Source: Opitutaceae bacterium (lineage in GTDB: Bacteria > Verrucomicrobiota > Verrucomicrobiia > Opitutales > Opitutaceae). From it: a DNA stretch of 35,605 nt. Position numbers and translations under genes: made by a program. Position 1 is the stretch's first letter; every line of letters begins with the position of its first letter. Positions 4,458 to 12,592 of this stretch are shown piece by piece. The stretch spans positions 1 to 35,605 of the forward strand of contig JACSRI010000049.1 of NCBI GenBank assembly GCA_014879845.1. The letters are read 5' to 3'. The notes below the pieces were generated by a model, which saw nothing but the letters and a program-made list of their open reading frames with translations, had not been told where the DNA came from and did no database searches.

Positions 4458-6284
4458 TCACTCCGGCCTCGGCGGCCGTTGAGAACGCACGGTGCCACCT
4501 CGTGCCGCGACGATGGCCACGGGGTCGCGCCGGGTGACGAGCGCTTTTCGCGCCGCGCGGCAGCGGCGGACCATCGGGTCGGCGTTCATCGCTGCGAATG
4601 CCTTCTCCGCCGAATCGATCTCCAGCTCGGCTTCGTGCAGGTCACCCGCTTTGGAAAGGAATTCGGCCAGTCGCAGGCGGGCGTGCGCGGCGTTGATACG
4701 CGAGCCCGCATCGAGCCAGACGGAAAGCGCCTGCCGCTGGGCCTCGATGGCGTCGTCGAGTCGATGCTCGGCGAAGGCCAATCCCGCACGTGCCTGATGG
4801 TAGAGAGCTTCGCTGCCGGCGGTATTGCGCAGATCGGATCGCTCGATGAGTTCGTCGAGGGCGGATCGGGCGAGCGGCAGATCACCGGCTTGCGCGGCGA
4901 TGCATCCGAGATGGGCGAGAAGGATCGCGCGGCGCTGGCCGTCCGCCCAGCCGGGCGCCTGCAGGCCCCGCTGCAGTGAGCGAATGGCCGCGGCGAACCG
5001 GCGATTTGCCGCCTGCACGAGTGCCCACCCGGGGAGTGGATGCCAGCCGAGTTCGTGCGCCTTGCGGAAGGCGTCCTGAGCGCCGTCGCAGTCGCCGCGC
5101 AGCAGCCGGATCTCTCCCAGCACACGGAAGGCGTCGCCTTCGGCGTAACGCGCGTTCTCGGAAAGGAGTTCGCGGGCCTTCGAGATCTCTGATTCGGCCC
5201 CGGTCAGCTTTCCTTGGACGCAGAGAATCTCGCCGCGATGGAGCCGGCAGAGCCCGGAGTATCCGTAGCTCGCATGACGGTTTTCCCAGCGGAAGAATTG
5301 GTCGGTCCACTGCCCGGCTCGGTGAGTGTCTCCGCGGTCAAGATACGCCCAAATGACACTGCAGAAGATGTATCCGCACACCCATGGGCTGACGGCGCCG
5401 GCCAGGACGGCGGCGCCCGATTCGTCCAGATGCACGAGGCCGGCGCGAATGTCGCCGGTCGCCAGTTCGATGTGCGCGCGGTAGACGAGGCTGAGGGCCT
5501 CGATATCCGGATCCTCAAGACGCCGAGCGACGCCCTCCGCGGCCTTGGCCAGGTCGAGGCAGGCTGTCAGGTCGCCCTCCATCAGGGCAACACGTGCGTT
5601 GAGCCAGAGTTGCATGCCGTGCTCGCGAGCCTCCTGGTGCTCGTCGCCCAGAAAGACTCCCGCGCGTCGCAGCCAGCCCTTGGCGATAGGCAGCTCGCGA
5701 TCTTCCAGATGGATGTTGGCCAGGGTCTGCGCGGCCCGGGCTGCGCCCACACGATCGGCATCTTGAACATGGGCCGCGACGGCACGTTCGAGCGGGTAGA
5801 TTGCCTCCTTGGGGCGTCCCTGGCAGAGCGCAGCCTGGGCCCACTGTTCCAGGTCGCAGGGCGCCAGGCCGGTGGTGTGGGAGATTTTCTGGTACGATTC
5901 GAGTGCGCTGGCCCACTTGCCGTCGGCATGGGCGCTTCGCGCCCGCGCCAAAAGCGGATCCTCACCGCGGTGCTGTCGTTCGTCGTCCACCGACGCGACG
6001 AACCGGTAGCCTTGGCGGGAAAAGGTCCGGATCGCGTCGGAGCGTGTTTCGGCGCGCAGCAGCGAGCGAATCACGCTCACCGCGCGCATGATCGACGAAT
6101 CCGTCACGATGACCTCCGGCCATATTGCGGAGAGCAACTCGTCCTTGGAGACGACGCGGTCGCGATGGCGCACAAGGTAGAGGAGAACGTCGAAGACACG
6201 CGGTTGCATCTCGATCGGACGTCCGCGCCGGCGCAACTCGCGCCTGGCTTCGTCCAGTTCAAACCCGTCGAAATGGAAAATCAT
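4458..6284 (-). CDS. Winged-helix (OmpR/CadC-type) transcriptional regulator with TPR-like tail
   Basis: A 608-residue soluble protein. Residues 1-98 form an OmpR/PhoB-type winged helix: MIFHFDGFELD at the start, MQPRVFDVLLYLVRH, the recognition-helix region around VTDSSIMRAVSVIRSLL, and the closing wing TFSRQGYRFVASV. Such domains occur in CadC-like regulators. No membrane segment follows, unlike CadC. Residues 110-590 are almost all alpha-helical with repeated helix-turn-helix pairs rich in A, L, W and G, as in TPR-like solenoids of signalling regulators. There is no receiver domain and no Walker A motif. It is divergent from the DUF4242 genes at 6444 and 6791 and upstream of the acetylesterase gene, so both sides are candidate targets. 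The inducing signal is unknown; the solenoid probably binds a peptide or protein partner. Confidence 0.8.
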   Translation of the reverse strand: MIFHFDGFELDEARRELRRRGRPIEMQPRVFDVLLYLVRHRDRVVSKDELLSAIWPEVIVTDSSIMRAVSVIRSLLRAETRSDAIRTFSRQGYRFVASVDDERQHRGEDPLLARARSAHADGKWASALESYQKISHTTGLAPCDLEQWAQAALCQGRPKEAIYPLERAVAAHVQDADRVGAARAAQTLANIHLEDRELPIAKGWLRRAGVFLGDEHQEAREHGMQLWLNARVALMEGDLTACLDLAKAAEGVARRLEDPDIEALSLVYRAHIELATGDIRAGLVHLDESGAAVLAGAVSPWVCGYIFCSVIWAYLDRGDTHRAGQWTDQFFRWENRHASYGYSGLCRLHRGEILCVQGKLTGAESEISKARELLSENARYAEGDAFRVLGEIRLLRGDCDGAQDAFRKAHELGWHPLPGWALVQAANRRFAAAIRSLQRGLQAPGWADGQRRAILLAHLGCIAAQAGDLPLARSALDELIERSDLRNTAGSEALYHQARAGLAFAEHRLDDAIEAQRQALSVWLDAGSRINAAHARLRLAEFLSKAGDLHEAELEIDSAEKAFAAMNADPMVRRCRAARKALVTRRDPVAIVAARGGTVRSQRPPRPE

Positions 6285-6354
6285 GGGTGGTGATCTCGGC
6301 GACGGGTACTCCCCTGGGCGGCGGCACGATTAAGAAAACGGTAAGGCCGCGAAA

Positions 6355-6383
6355 AGGACATTTCCGCGCCGCGCGGCTAGGAT
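6355..6383 (+). promoter_or_regulatory. Candidate sigma-70 promoter for the DUF4242 genes
   Basis: AGGACA (6355-6360) and TAGGAT (6378-6383) are separated by 17 nt in the 159-bp divergent gap between the winged-helix regulator and the first DUF4242 gene. The match is moderate (four of six at -35, four of six at -10). Transcription would begin near 6390, about 55 nt before the start codon. Confidence 0.3.
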
Positions 6384-6443
6384 GGACACGTTCGCCCGCC
6401 CATCCGGGCCGGGCACAGATCCAAAAACCAAACTGCATTCGCA

Positions 6444-6749
6444 ATGAAGACATCAGGTATGAAGACGTATGTGATCTCCCGTGCCAATGGCTGGGGATCG
6501 GAAAAGGAACTGGAAGCCGCGGCCGCCGTGTCAGCGCGGATCGGCAATGAGGAGATGCCGGACAAGGTCCGGTGGATTCGCTCGTATGTGACGAAACACG
6601 AAGGCGGGCGCATCGGCACGGTTTGTATCTATCAGGGCACAGACCCCGAGGCCGTGCGCGAGCACGCCCGCCGCGTGGGCATGCCGGCGGATTCTATCAC
6701 GGAAATCGCCGACACGGTGATCGTGCGGCCGGACCCCGGCAGCGCTTGA
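6444..6749 (+). CDS. DUF4242 (SCO4226-like) small protein
   Basis: A 101-residue soluble protein with no signal peptide. The sequence IRSYVT, then a short loop, VCIYQGTDPEAVREHARRVGMPADSITEI is the core of the DUF4242 family, whose structurally known member SCO4226 is a nickel-binding ferredoxin-like protein. The typical order is seen: a first beta strand (KTYVISR), a helix, W-x-x-SYVT, a short loop, and EHARR. An in-frame ATG six codons in (6459) gives the more usual N-terminus MKTYVISR; neither start has a clear ribosome binding site. The next gene starts 41 bp downstream, so the two are likely co-transcribed. Function is not established for the family; metal binding is a possibility only. 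Confidence 0.8.
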   Translation: MKTSGMKTYVISRANGWGSEKELEAAAAVSARIGNEEMPDKVRWIRSYVTKHEGGRIGTVCIYQGTDPEAVREHARRVGMPADSITEIADTVIVRPDPGSA

Positions 6750-6790
6750 TGCGGTCGCCACGTTCCCAATCCCAACAAACGAAAACCACC

Positions 6791-7402
6791 ATGAAGAAGA
6801 TCGGTATCCTCACCATGCTGCTTGCGGTCCTTGGCCCGGTATCGCGAGCCGAACAGGCCGCCGACGCGGCCGGAAAGACCGTGTTTATCGACGTGCATGA
6901 ATTCACTCCGGGAGCCGTCACGGCCTCCGAGATAGCGAAGGCACATTCGCGCGACGTCGCCGTCGCCGCTCGCTTCGGCGTTCGCTTCATCGAGTACTGG
7001 ATCGATGCGGCGCACGGTCGCGTCTACAGCCTCGTCGAGGCCGCGGATGCGGCGAGCATCACGGCGGCACACGCCAAGGGCCAGGGGCTGAGCCCGGCGC
7101 GCATTCTTGCCGTTTCAGCCGGGGCGGCGTCGAAGGCCCTGGGCGGGCGTCCCCTGTTTCTCGACATCCACGAATTCGGCCCGGGTAACGTCGAGCCTGC
7201 AGCCGTCGCTGGCGCCCACCTGAAGGACCTGGAGGTCGAGTCCCAATACGGTGTGAACTTCATCAACTACTGGGTGGATACGGAGCACGGTTCCGTCTTC
7301 TGCCTGTCTGAGGCGGACACCGCGGACGAGGTGGTGGAGACACATCGCCACGCCCACGGGCTCCTGCCGGCCACCGTCGTGCAGGTCACGCCCGGCCAAT
7401 AG
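6791..7402 (+). CDS. Exported tandem DUF4242 protein
   Basis: A 203-residue protein. The frame is open further upstream, but the ATG at 6791 is chosen because it gives a clean signal peptide (MKKIGILTMLLAVLGP, cleavage near SRA-EQ) and follows the previous stop. The mature part is two copies of one domain, about residues 29-110 and 112-193. They align without gaps, with about 34 identities in 80 positions by eye. Both carry F-x-D-x-HEF, AH-x-x-D, the YW-x-D strand, HG-x-V and a closing LxP. The conserved His and Asp residues could form a metal or small-ligand site. The upstream gene encodes a single cytoplasmic relative, and the divergent winged-helix regulator may control both. No catalytic motif is recognised. 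Family membership is fairly sure; function is unknown. Confidence 0.75.
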   Translation: MKKIGILTMLLAVLGPVSRAEQAADAAGKTVFIDVHEFTPGAVTASEIAKAHSRDVAVAARFGVRFIEYWIDAAHGRVYSLVEAADAASITAAHAKGQGLSPARILAVSAGAASKALGGRPLFLDIHEFGPGNVEPAAVAGAHLKDLEVESQYGVNFINYWVDTEHGSVFCLSEADTADEVVETHRHAHGLLPATVVQVTPGQ

Positions 7403-10624: not shown

Positions 10625-12592
10625 ATGAATCCGCTCACTCCGGTCGTCCGTAGTCGTTTCGAGCACGTGCCGCTCGCCGTCTTTGGCAGCAGCGCCGAGG
10701 CTTCCGCCGCGGTGGCCCGCGAGGTCGCCGCCCTCATCCGCTCCCGGCCCAGGGGCCGGCCGCCTGTCGTGCTCGGCCTCGCCACGGGCTCGAGTCCGGT
10801 GGCGCTCTACCGCGAGCTCGTCCGGCTGCACCGCGAGGAGGGCCTGAGCTTTGCCAACGTCATCTCGTTCAATCTCGACGAGTACTACCCGCTCCCGCCC
10901 GAGCACCCGCAGAGCTACCGCTACTTCATGCGGAAGCACCTTTTCGATCACATCGACATCGATCCCGCCAACACCCACCTGCCCGAGGGGACCGTGCCGA
11001 AGGACGGGATCGACGCGCATTGCCGCGCCTATGAGGACAAGATCCGCGCCGCGGGTGGGATCGATTTCCAGGTGCTCGGCATCGGCCGGACGGGCCACAT
11101 CGGCTTCAATGAGCCCGGCAGCCCCGGTCGCTCACGCACGCGGCTCATCGCGCTCGATCCGCTTACGCGGCGCGACGCGGCGGGCGACTTCGGCGGCGAG
11201 GAACAGACGCCCCGACACGCGCTGACCATGGGTGTGCGCACGATCCTCGAGGCACGACGCGTGGTCCTCATGGCCTGGGGCCAGCACAAGGCCGCGATCG
11301 TGCGCGCCGCCATCGAGGTCGACGTGACCGCCCAGGTCACGGCGTCGTACCTGCAGGAGCACGACAACGCCCTCTTCGTCCTCGACCAGGCCGCGGCGGG
11401 TTCGCTCACGCGGTTCCGCGCGCCCTGGCTGCTCGGTCCGCTCGAGGAGCAGGGGCTCGCCTGGGACGAGCGCATGACCCGGCGCGCCATCCTCTGGCTC
11501 GCGGGGAAGTGCGGGAAGGCGATCCTCAAGCTCACCGACGACGATTACAACGAGGCCGGCCTGCAGGATCTCCTGCGCGTGCACGGATCCGCCTACGAGG
11601 CCAACCGCACCGGCTTCTACCAGATGCAGCACACCATCACGGGCTGGCCCGGCGGACGCGATCCCGCCCGCACCCAGCCCGGCGACGCGCTCGCGCGACC
11701 GCTGCGCGCCAAGTCCGCCGGCCTCTTCCCCAAGCGCGTGCTCGTGCTGTCCCCACATCCCGACGACGACGTCATTTCCATGGGCGGCACGCTCTGCCGG
11801 CTCGTCGACCAGGGACACGAGGTGCACATCGCCTACGAAGTCTCCGGCGCCAATGCCGTGTCGGACGAGACGCTTTGGCGGGCGCTGCTTTTTGCGCGAG
11901 ATTCCGGCCTCGGCGGCGACAGGCACGCACCGGCCGTGCGCGCGTGGTGCGACACTTACGAGGCGACTGGCGCGCTGCCGGCTGACGCAGCGCTACGCGG
12001 TTGGAAAGGCCTCGTGCGTCGGCACGAGGCGACCGCGGCCGCGCGCGTGTGCGGCGTGGGTCCGGCCCGGCTGCATTTTCTCGACCTGCCTTTCTATGAG
12101 TCGGCCGTCGCGCGCGGACGCCACACCGGTCCGGAGGATGTGGCGATCATGCGGCGGTTGCTGCAGGAGGTGCGTCCCCATCTCATCTACGCGGCCGGCG
12201 ACCTCGACGACCCGCACGGCACGCACCGCCTCTGCCTGCACGTGCTGCGCGAAGCCATCGCGCAGAGTGCCGGCGAATCCTGGGTGGGTGAGACGGAGCT
12301 CTGGCTCTACCGCGGTGCCTGGGCGGAGTGGGAACTCGACGAGATCGATCTCGCCGTGCCACTCAGCCCGCAGGAAGTGATGCGCCGCCGCCGCGCCATC
12401 TTCCGCCACGAGACGCAGAAGGATCTCGCGCTCTTCCCCGGCGGCGATCGCCGCGAATTCTGGCAACGCACGGAGGATCGGAGTCGCCGCATGGCCGACG
12501 CCTACAACAATCTCGGTCTCGCCGAATACGAGGCCATCGAAGCCTTCAAGCGTTTCTCGCCCGAGGAGTTTCTCCGCCATGTCGCGCTCTAG
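10625..12592 (+). CDS. nagB: Glucosamine-6-phosphate deaminase fused to a PIG-L/LmbE deacetylase domain
   Basis: A 655-residue fusion. Residues 20-290 are NagB-like: GLATGSSP (phosphate loop), NLDEYYPL with Asp85 (Asp72 of the E. coli enzyme), GIGRTGHIGFNEP with His158 and Glu163 (His143 and Glu148), and MGVRTILEARRV. Thr156 stands where E. coli NagB has catalytic-triad Asp141. Residues 290-365 are a helical linker. Residues 370-640 are a PIG-L/LmbE zinc deacetylase: SPHPDDDVISMGG (His378, Asp380, Asp381) and HGTHRLCLHV, with His534 as likely third zinc ligand. NagB converts GlcN-6-P to fructose-6-P and ammonia; PIG-L enzymes deacetylate GlcNAc groups. The same fusion is known from Bacteroidetes. 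It is first in the amino-sugar operon and overlaps the next gene by 14 nt. Confidence 0.9.
   Translation: MNPLTPVVRSRFEHVPLAVFGSSAEASAAVAREVAALIRSRPRGRPPVVLGLATGSSPVALYRELVRLHREEGLSFANVISFNLDEYYPLPPEHPQSYRYFMRKHLFDHIDIDPANTHLPEGTVPKDGIDAHCRAYEDKIRAAGGIDFQVLGIGRTGHIGFNEPGSPGRSRTRLIALDPLTRRDAAGDFGGEEQTPRHALTMGVRTILEARRVVLMAWGQHKAAIVRAAIEVDVTAQVTASYLQEHDNALFVLDQAAAGSLTRFRAPWLLGPLEEQGLAWDERMTRRAILWLAGKCGKAILKLTDDDYNEAGLQDLLRVHGSAYEANRTGFYQMQHTITGWPGGRDPARTQPGDALARPLRAKSAGLFPKRVLVLSPHPDDDVISMGGTLCRLVDQGHEVHIAYEVSGANAVSDETLWRALLFARDSGLGGDRHAPAVRAWCDTYEATGALPADAALRGWKGLVRRHEATAAARVCGVGPARLHFLDLPFYESAVARGRHTGPEDVAIMRRLLQEVRPHLIYAAGDLDDPHGTHRLCLHVLREAIAQSAGESWVGETELWLYRGAWAEWELDEIDLAVPLSPQEVMRRRRAIFRHETQKDLALFPGGDRREFWQRTEDRSRRMADAYNNLGLAEYEAIEAFKRFSPEEFLRHVAL

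Follow-up and report, generated by a model that had tools for sequence, protein, structure and literature searches.

The window, by which we mean the whole 35,605-nt stretch of Opitutaceae DNA analysed here, carries a regulatory module in which a three-repeat operator ties a winged-helix/TPR regulator to a one-domain SCO4226-like (DUF4242) protein, and this core unit of regulator plus one-domain protein is conserved beyond the phylum. The regulator, the operator and the promoter layout are well supported computationally. As to function, we lean, if only just, towards a thiol- or sulfide-response regulon with the DUF4242 protein as its core target and an exported two-domain relative as an Opitutaceae addition. 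The sulfur role itself stands at about even odds.

The gene trio and its distribution

The regulator P0003 (4458-6284, reverse strand, 608 aa) combines an N-terminal PhoB/OmpR-type winged helix (Trans_reg_C, 53.6 bits, Pfam cut-off 26.2) with a long TPR region matched by TPR/SNAP families; these were its Pfam matches at E<=0.001, and no receiver domain was recognised among them. Divergently from it are encoded P0001 (6459-6749, forward strand, 96 aa, without a signal), which has one match to PF14026 (69.9 bits, Pfam cut-off 28.5), and P0002 (6791-7402, forward strand; 203 aa, 6791-7399), which matches the same family in two stretches (120.7 bits in all, same cut-off), its domains covering about residues 30-112 and 121-203. 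Pfam now names PF14026 'SCO4226-like', DUF4242 being the older name. The three genes are thus where the first-pass annotation had placed them, but the gap to the regulator, given there as 159 bp, measures 174 bp because aligned homologues of the one-domain protein begin at M-x-(T/L)-(Y/F), i.e. at 6459 (an alternative ATG at 6444 is possible and gives 101 aa).

P0002 starts with basic residues, a hydrophobic stretch and SRA/E, and the first 25 residues of its AlphaFold model (pLDDT 87.3) fall under pLDDT 50; both features predict export. The predicted signal peptide (6791-6850, forward strand) is MKKIGILTMLLAVLGPVSRA, with the cleavage position deduced from the sequence. Hydrophobic leaders also begin the other three doubles (G003, G033 and L024, the last starting at the ATG at 5328), and the leader of the G003 protein ends in GAGC, possibly a lipobox. 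The kinship of the two exported domains, claimed from 34 of 80 positions, was upheld by alignment (34 identities in 84 columns). The one-domain protein is only a remote relative of these domains (18/77 and 22/80 identities, alignment scores -7 and 9), so that a recent origin as a copy of either can be dismissed.

The AlphaFold model of the one-domain protein (pLDDT 91.4) has 4oi6 as its closest solved structure (Z 11.4, rmsd 1.9 over 80 residues); the protein is small and ferredoxin-like and is expected to dimerise. Trp39, Arg41, Tyr43, Cys56 and His69 are among the residues invariant in 40 one-domain sequences, a set that suggests a ligand pocket or an active site. Domain 1 of the double superimposes on 4oi6 with Z 14.9 and rmsd 1.2 over 81 residues, and the second domain carries an invariant H-x3-H (His185, His189). 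Sulfur oxygenase reductases, too, align with the double model (Z ~10, tied with ovorubin and siroheme decarboxylase); this likeness was set aside as functional evidence because the fold is shared.

The host genome (G000) amounts to 5.4 Mb in 277 contigs. It is one of eight among 57 genomes that carry PF14026; two others, G003 and G033, share the set of one single and one double protein. The trio exists in four Opitutaceae genomes, the window's own, G003, G033 and L024, a recurrence in the latter three that exceeds chance. Compared with the window, G003 and G033 have one-domain proteins 82 and 77 %, doubles 54 and 50 %, and regulators 61 and 59 % identical. At L017, gene calling by third-position GC misses the one-domain and double genes, and both were read directly from the sequence. 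A full-length double was found in 3 of 387 Verrucomicrobiota genomes, the host included, with partial or weak matches in three more; the L024 double is an extra case from a genome outside that sample. What is conserved at the heart of the module is thus not the 'matched inside/outside pair' proposed earlier, and the exported double, though real, is a narrow Opitutaceae elaboration.

The core unit is much more widespread. When each species was represented by a single genome and two strict peptide patterns were searched, which gives a lower bound, at least 50 one-domain loci came up, distributed over Verrucomicrobia, Proteobacteria, Actinobacteria and a single Acidobacteria bin. At 16 of the 50 the regulator is adjacent, L042 adding a degraded copy, and the pair spans Verrucomicrobia, Gamma-, Beta- and Alphaproteobacteria and the Acidobacteria bin (L045, whose contig has only 3.5 kb and is possibly mis-binned). 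At L042 (3778-4895) the regulator is split over two frames, with no winged helix recognised and the operator intact, which reflects a recent loss or an assembly error. In the order of Bradyrhizobium, 8 of 249 genomes, that of L056 among them, have the one-domain gene, and the regulator is adjacent in six of the eight. Contig 42 (C42) of the host carries a second unit without a double: a paralogous regulator (45 % identical to P0003, running off the contig end), a one-domain protein (47 %) and, 0.29 kb downstream, mddA, the gene of the methanethiol S-methyltransferase MddA. A plasmid search gave two remote matches only (33 and 38 % identical). At L053 (3847-4872), L072 (3634-4944) and L142 (5739-6827), a gene read as GlxA-like (DJ-1/AraC type) is divergent from the one-domain gene and the TPR regulator is missing. 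The neighbourhood search suggested by the first-pass annotation thus returned the whole trio in three further Opitutaceae genomes and, beyond the phylum, the regulator/one-domain pair; with the neighbourhood conserved in relatives, the idea of a real module with its own regulator stands, and it has now gained a specific cis-element.

The operator and its promoter

When the intergenic sequence of contig 42 was aligned with those of the four trios, the sole conserved island in an otherwise poorly conserved region proved to be three direct repeats with a period of 11. In the window this operator (6331-6359, forward strand) reads TAAGA-N6-TAAGG-N6-AAAGGAC and is oriented toward the one-domain gene. 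A 24-position consensus of the five sites was used to score the 200-bp stretches that precede other one-domain genes; the five consensus loci were excluded, L027 was omitted (its upstream region has only 67 bp), and most test loci had previously been scored with an earlier consensus. All 20 loci with an adjacent regulator, L042 being counted among them despite its broken regulator and L038 and L039 being near-identical, score 16-23 of 24 upstream of the one-domain gene, 18 of them at p<=0.01 against 300 dinucleotide shuffles and the other two at 0.023 and 0.037. Among the 34 loci lacking an adjacent regulator, a score of at least 16 was reached once (L052, 19), the rest lying at 12-15. L052, an Amaricoccus locus counted in the latter group, was therefore expected to have the regulator elsewhere in its genome, and a later search found one (417 bits; TPR part 273 bits). 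The regulator is absent at E<=1e-30 from 13 genomes, drafts that may be incomplete, drawn from the 33 other regulator-less loci. The operator remains before the one-domain gene though the arrangement of the genes varies between divergent, tandem and convergent (L138).

Within three mismatches, the host genome has three sites, the window operator among them, against one in a reversed control. At up to two mismatches, 18 genomes contain 22 pattern sites versus 2 in the reversed control; by manual count 17 of the 22 precede a one-domain gene, two an EamA gene, one an OsmC gene and one mddA, with one unassigned. For the site in G433:C14 (L126) no target was recognised, and chance is its probable origin. 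G425 (L026) has no site within two mismatches of the pattern; its upstream region nevertheless scores 20 of 24. Across 125 Opitutaceae genomes, 12 operator-pattern sites occur in nine genomes (control 5), and the two-mismatch sites in G1087, G013, G019 and G266 were dropped as they look like chance. In 369 genomes from the class of G432 (Plasticicumulans), up to one mismatch gave two matches, one being the starting genome, and a control of one, so that the module is rare there.

A -10-like hexamer, TAGGAT (6378-6383, forward strand), lies 18 bp past the window operator. Of 32 operator sites, which are mutually related and do not amount to 32 independent events, 28 are followed at 18-19 bp by the general form [TC]ANNNT; at non-overlapping spacings the same hexamer occurs in at most 4 of the 32 (shuffled mean 1.2, maximum 6). 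With the box at this distance, the third repeat overlaps the predicted -35 region. Repeats with an 11-bp period over the -35 and a -10 at fixed spacing are the layout expected of a PhoB-type activator, and binding of the protein is predicted; that the operator acts in repression instead is conceivable.

Candidate regulon and possible signals

In the mechanism that we propose, the trio would work by itself as a one-component regulatory module, whose winged-helix/TPR regulator would bind the three repeats over the -35 of the one-domain promoter and activate it in a PhoB-like manner, with the one-domain SCO4226-like protein as core target; in Opitutaceae, the same transcript would additionally carry the exported tandem-domain relative. 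The signal would be toxic low-molecular-weight thiols or sulfide (methanethiol, H2S), which the DUF4242 proteins might bind or convert inside the cytoplasm and, in Opitutaceae, outside too. The compound would be sensed by the TPR part with its two invariant cysteines: Cys308 and Cys346 are conserved in 24 of 24 aligned regulators, at identities down to 30 %, which fits thiol sensing. However, the signal perceived by a TPR regulator can also be a protein or the redox state rather than a small molecule.

A thiol or sulfide signal appears most likely because the operator precedes genes for MddA, EamA and OsmC proteins and because CysK(-glutaredoxin) genes recur nearby. CysK makes cysteine from sulfide, both glutaredoxin and OsmC depend on thiols, and EamA-type carriers export metabolites, cysteine included in some cases. 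Methylation of H2S and methanethiol is the reported activity of MddA, with detoxification of both as its proposed role (PMC12904073). In three genomes mddA lies downstream of the one-domain gene on the same strand, at ~0.29 kb (C42), 0.5 kb (L056) and 1.3 kb (L140), the last two identified by phmmer; the C42 and L121 proteins exceed the cut-off of 270 for NCBIfam NF045656 (318.6 and 319.5 bits). In the L024 genome an operator site is found 355 bp upstream of the MddA start, and in G314 at ~307 bp. Reading of the operator-mddA leaders of L121 and G314 recognised no lost one-domain gene. The G314 locus (L176, 4674-7396) presents a perfect operator flanked by MddA and a divergent regulator that has the winged helix in common (151 bits), while its C-terminal part is without a TPR-profile match even at E 1; no PF14026 gene was found in the 14 kb of sequence around it. 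Here another sensor part may have been joined to the same DNA-binding head, and a likeness confined to the winged helix counts against the preferred reading. So does the count over all Verrucomicrobiota mddA genes above cut-off, seven in 6 of 387 genomes: the operator accompanies two and is absent from five. The window's own genome has a second MddA gene above cut-off, at G000:C61:169-879 (L147), without an operator.

In the host genome an operator site also occurs ~40 bp before an EamA-family transporter gene. At L035, L038, L136, L137 and L139 the operator likewise precedes EamA, divergent from the regulator, and except at L038, where the contig ends, a CysK-glutaredoxin fusion stands beside them. 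This fusion, a cysteine synthase with a C-terminal glutaredoxin domain, was seen at L035 (465-1988), L136, L137, L139 and L178 (6037-8505). In the L052 genome an operator lies ~250 bp upstream of OsmC, with the regulator and CysK-glutaredoxin 5-8 kb away, and Competibacter (L031) has the order one-domain gene, OsmC, flavoprotein (named from sequence reading), CysK. Within the fetched flanks, CysK is found at 16 of 50 loci. A weakness of this association is that 12 of the 16 belong to one family, the Rhodobacteraceae (L033, L034, L036, L040, L043, L044, L046-L049, L051, L058), where CysK adjoins the one-domain gene without the three-repeat operator. A different winged-helix regulator of ~520-530 aa is nearby at 10 of these 12, those with a long enough flank; the same function may have been rewired here independently. 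A further point against sulfur is that the CysK matches lie just below the NCBIfam cut-off (343.7 and 342.7 versus 350.95) and those of OsmC and EamA well below theirs; they pass Pfam's, and sulfur compounds are thus only putative substrates. Moreover, the neighbours of the window trio include none that was recognised as a sulfur gene, and within the fetched flanks the actinobacterial one-domain genes have no regulator, operator, CysK, MddA, EamA or OsmC neighbours. By eye, a single frame at 10625-12592 of the window seems to join a glucosamine-6-phosphate deaminase to a PIG-L-type deacetylase.

Much of the same evidence could be read, though we consider this unlikely, as a general response to redox or electrophile stress, in which the regulon, with its glutaredoxin, OsmC, cysteine synthase, flavoprotein and exporter, would replenish thiols that oxidants or electrophiles have depleted, and the regulator cysteines would sense the attack. 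The CysK-glutaredoxin fusions, the OsmC genes that follow the operator or adjoin the one-domain gene and the invariant Cys308 and Cys346 would all suit such a role, as would the reported down-regulation of SCO4226, the Streptomyces coelicolor member of the family, under oxidative stress in an HbpS-SenS-SenR-dependent manner (PMC4991794). However, MddA spends S-adenosylmethionine on methylating thiols, which suits an excess of thiols rather than their loss, and reading of the genes beside the operators recognised no catalase, thioredoxin reductase or peroxiredoxin.

Metal handling, one reading first suggested for this locus, was rejected as the first choice on the ligand and equivalog results and is now distinctly unlikely. 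It would have both DUF4242 proteins sequester a metal as SCO4226 does, under a metal-responsive regulator. SCO4226 is reported to bind nickel with a Kd of 10 uM and to be nickel-induced (PMC4186839), which favours a metal and weighs against a thiol signal; its authors themselves rate the affinity as low and leave the cellular function open. Both window proteins belong to the same Pfam family, and among solved structures nickel-bound SCO4226 ranks first for the single protein and, by VIA-align, for the double (second by Foldseek). The best-conserved nickel site of SCO4226, Ni-1, consists of Asp43, Ser46 and His76 (PMC4186839). By hand mapping, Asp43 corresponds to Thr45 and His76 to Thr81 in the single protein, and Ser46 has no clear equivalent. 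The double keeps Asp43 in both domains (Asp72/Asp163) and equivalents of His23 (His52, His143), along with further invariant histidines, but has Leu106/Val197 for His76; at the Ser46 position it has His75 (His in 3/4 doubles) and His166 (1/4). Against the NCBIfam nickel equivalog NF033706, P0002 scores 85.9 for a cut-off of 125 and P0001 has no match, and none of the identified operator-linked genes was recognised as a metal gene. Nickel handling by the window proteins is thus not supported, and the operator and neighbour genes suggest thiols and sulfide instead.

About as unlikely is that the one-domain protein acts as a partner or antagonist of the regulator in a feedback loop, the metabolic genes being secondary, lineage-specific recruits without a fixed chemical theme: the one-domain gene and the regulator are the most constant pair, G314 has operator and MddA with only the winged helix shared, and protein distances correlate over 24 loci (Mantel r 0.77, 0/2000 permutations; L143 stands in for L056, same genome), but shared ancestry would give this correlation too, so that it is not proof of interaction, and G314 lacks the one-domain gene within 14 kb while actinobacteria have it without the regulator.

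A thiol- or sulfide-response regulon thus remains our preferred reading. Literature searches covering titles and the beginnings of abstracts gave no description of this winged-helix/TPR regulator, its operator or its regulon and no account of mddA regulation; judged by such listings, module, operator and promoter are undescribed. (The identifier 'PF14026' mostly retrieves Plasmodium papers, in which, as far as listed, it appears to be an unrelated identifier of the same form.) Tentatively, and with less confidence than in the regulon as such, the regulator may represent an undescribed, cysteine-sensing one-component family that governs defence against methanethiol and sulfide through a cross-phylum operator, the DUF4242 proteins being new thiol or sulfide trappers or converters, one of them deployed outside the cytoplasm in Opitutaceae. 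If so, 'nickel protein' would be a misnomer for this branch of PF14026, a family for which the listings yielded one studied member, the low-affinity nickel binder (PMC4186839). For this branch, sequence alone now supplies a regulator of its own, an operator, the layout of the promoter and a set of candidate genes. A transcriptional switch for MddA, by which H2S and methanethiol are converted to dimethylsulfide, would be testable in culturable Bradyrhizobium or Xanthobacter, for instance X. autotrophicus DSM 432 (L038).

Comparison with known systems

SCO4226 (PDB 4OI3/4OI6, PF14026, NF033706) shares Pfam family and fold with both window proteins. It differs in that its Ni-1 set is not conserved in them, that they stay under the equivalog cut-off and that the window has a tandem, exported form; its own gene lies beside phoU-phoR-phoP, a context unlike that of the trio. 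MddA (NF045656) is found downstream of the operator or of the one-domain gene, on the same strand, in five genomes (the host's C42, the L024 genome, G314, L056 and L140) and is a regulon candidate in some lineages, outside the window trio.

SqrR, BigR, FisR and CstR are known sulfide sensors, and no such names occur among the Pfam and NCBIfam matches of P0003, as judged by match names alone. CadC/HilA-type one-component regulators resemble it in joining an N-terminal winged helix to a large C-terminal part, which in CadC is a membrane sensor; P0003 matches the CadC (NF007540) and HilA models at its N terminus with 54.3 and 38.6 bits, far under the cut-offs of 400 and 589, and the targets differ from those of the window regulator. 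With PhoB/OmpR-type activators, for which the pho box offers the comparison in repeat layout, the module has in common Trans_reg_C, direct repeats of 11-bp period that overlap the predicted -35 and a -10-like box at fixed spacing. Unlike these response regulators, the window regulator has a TPR region where no receiver was recognised, and its operator type comprises three repeats, TMAG...TMAG...GGAAAGGAC.
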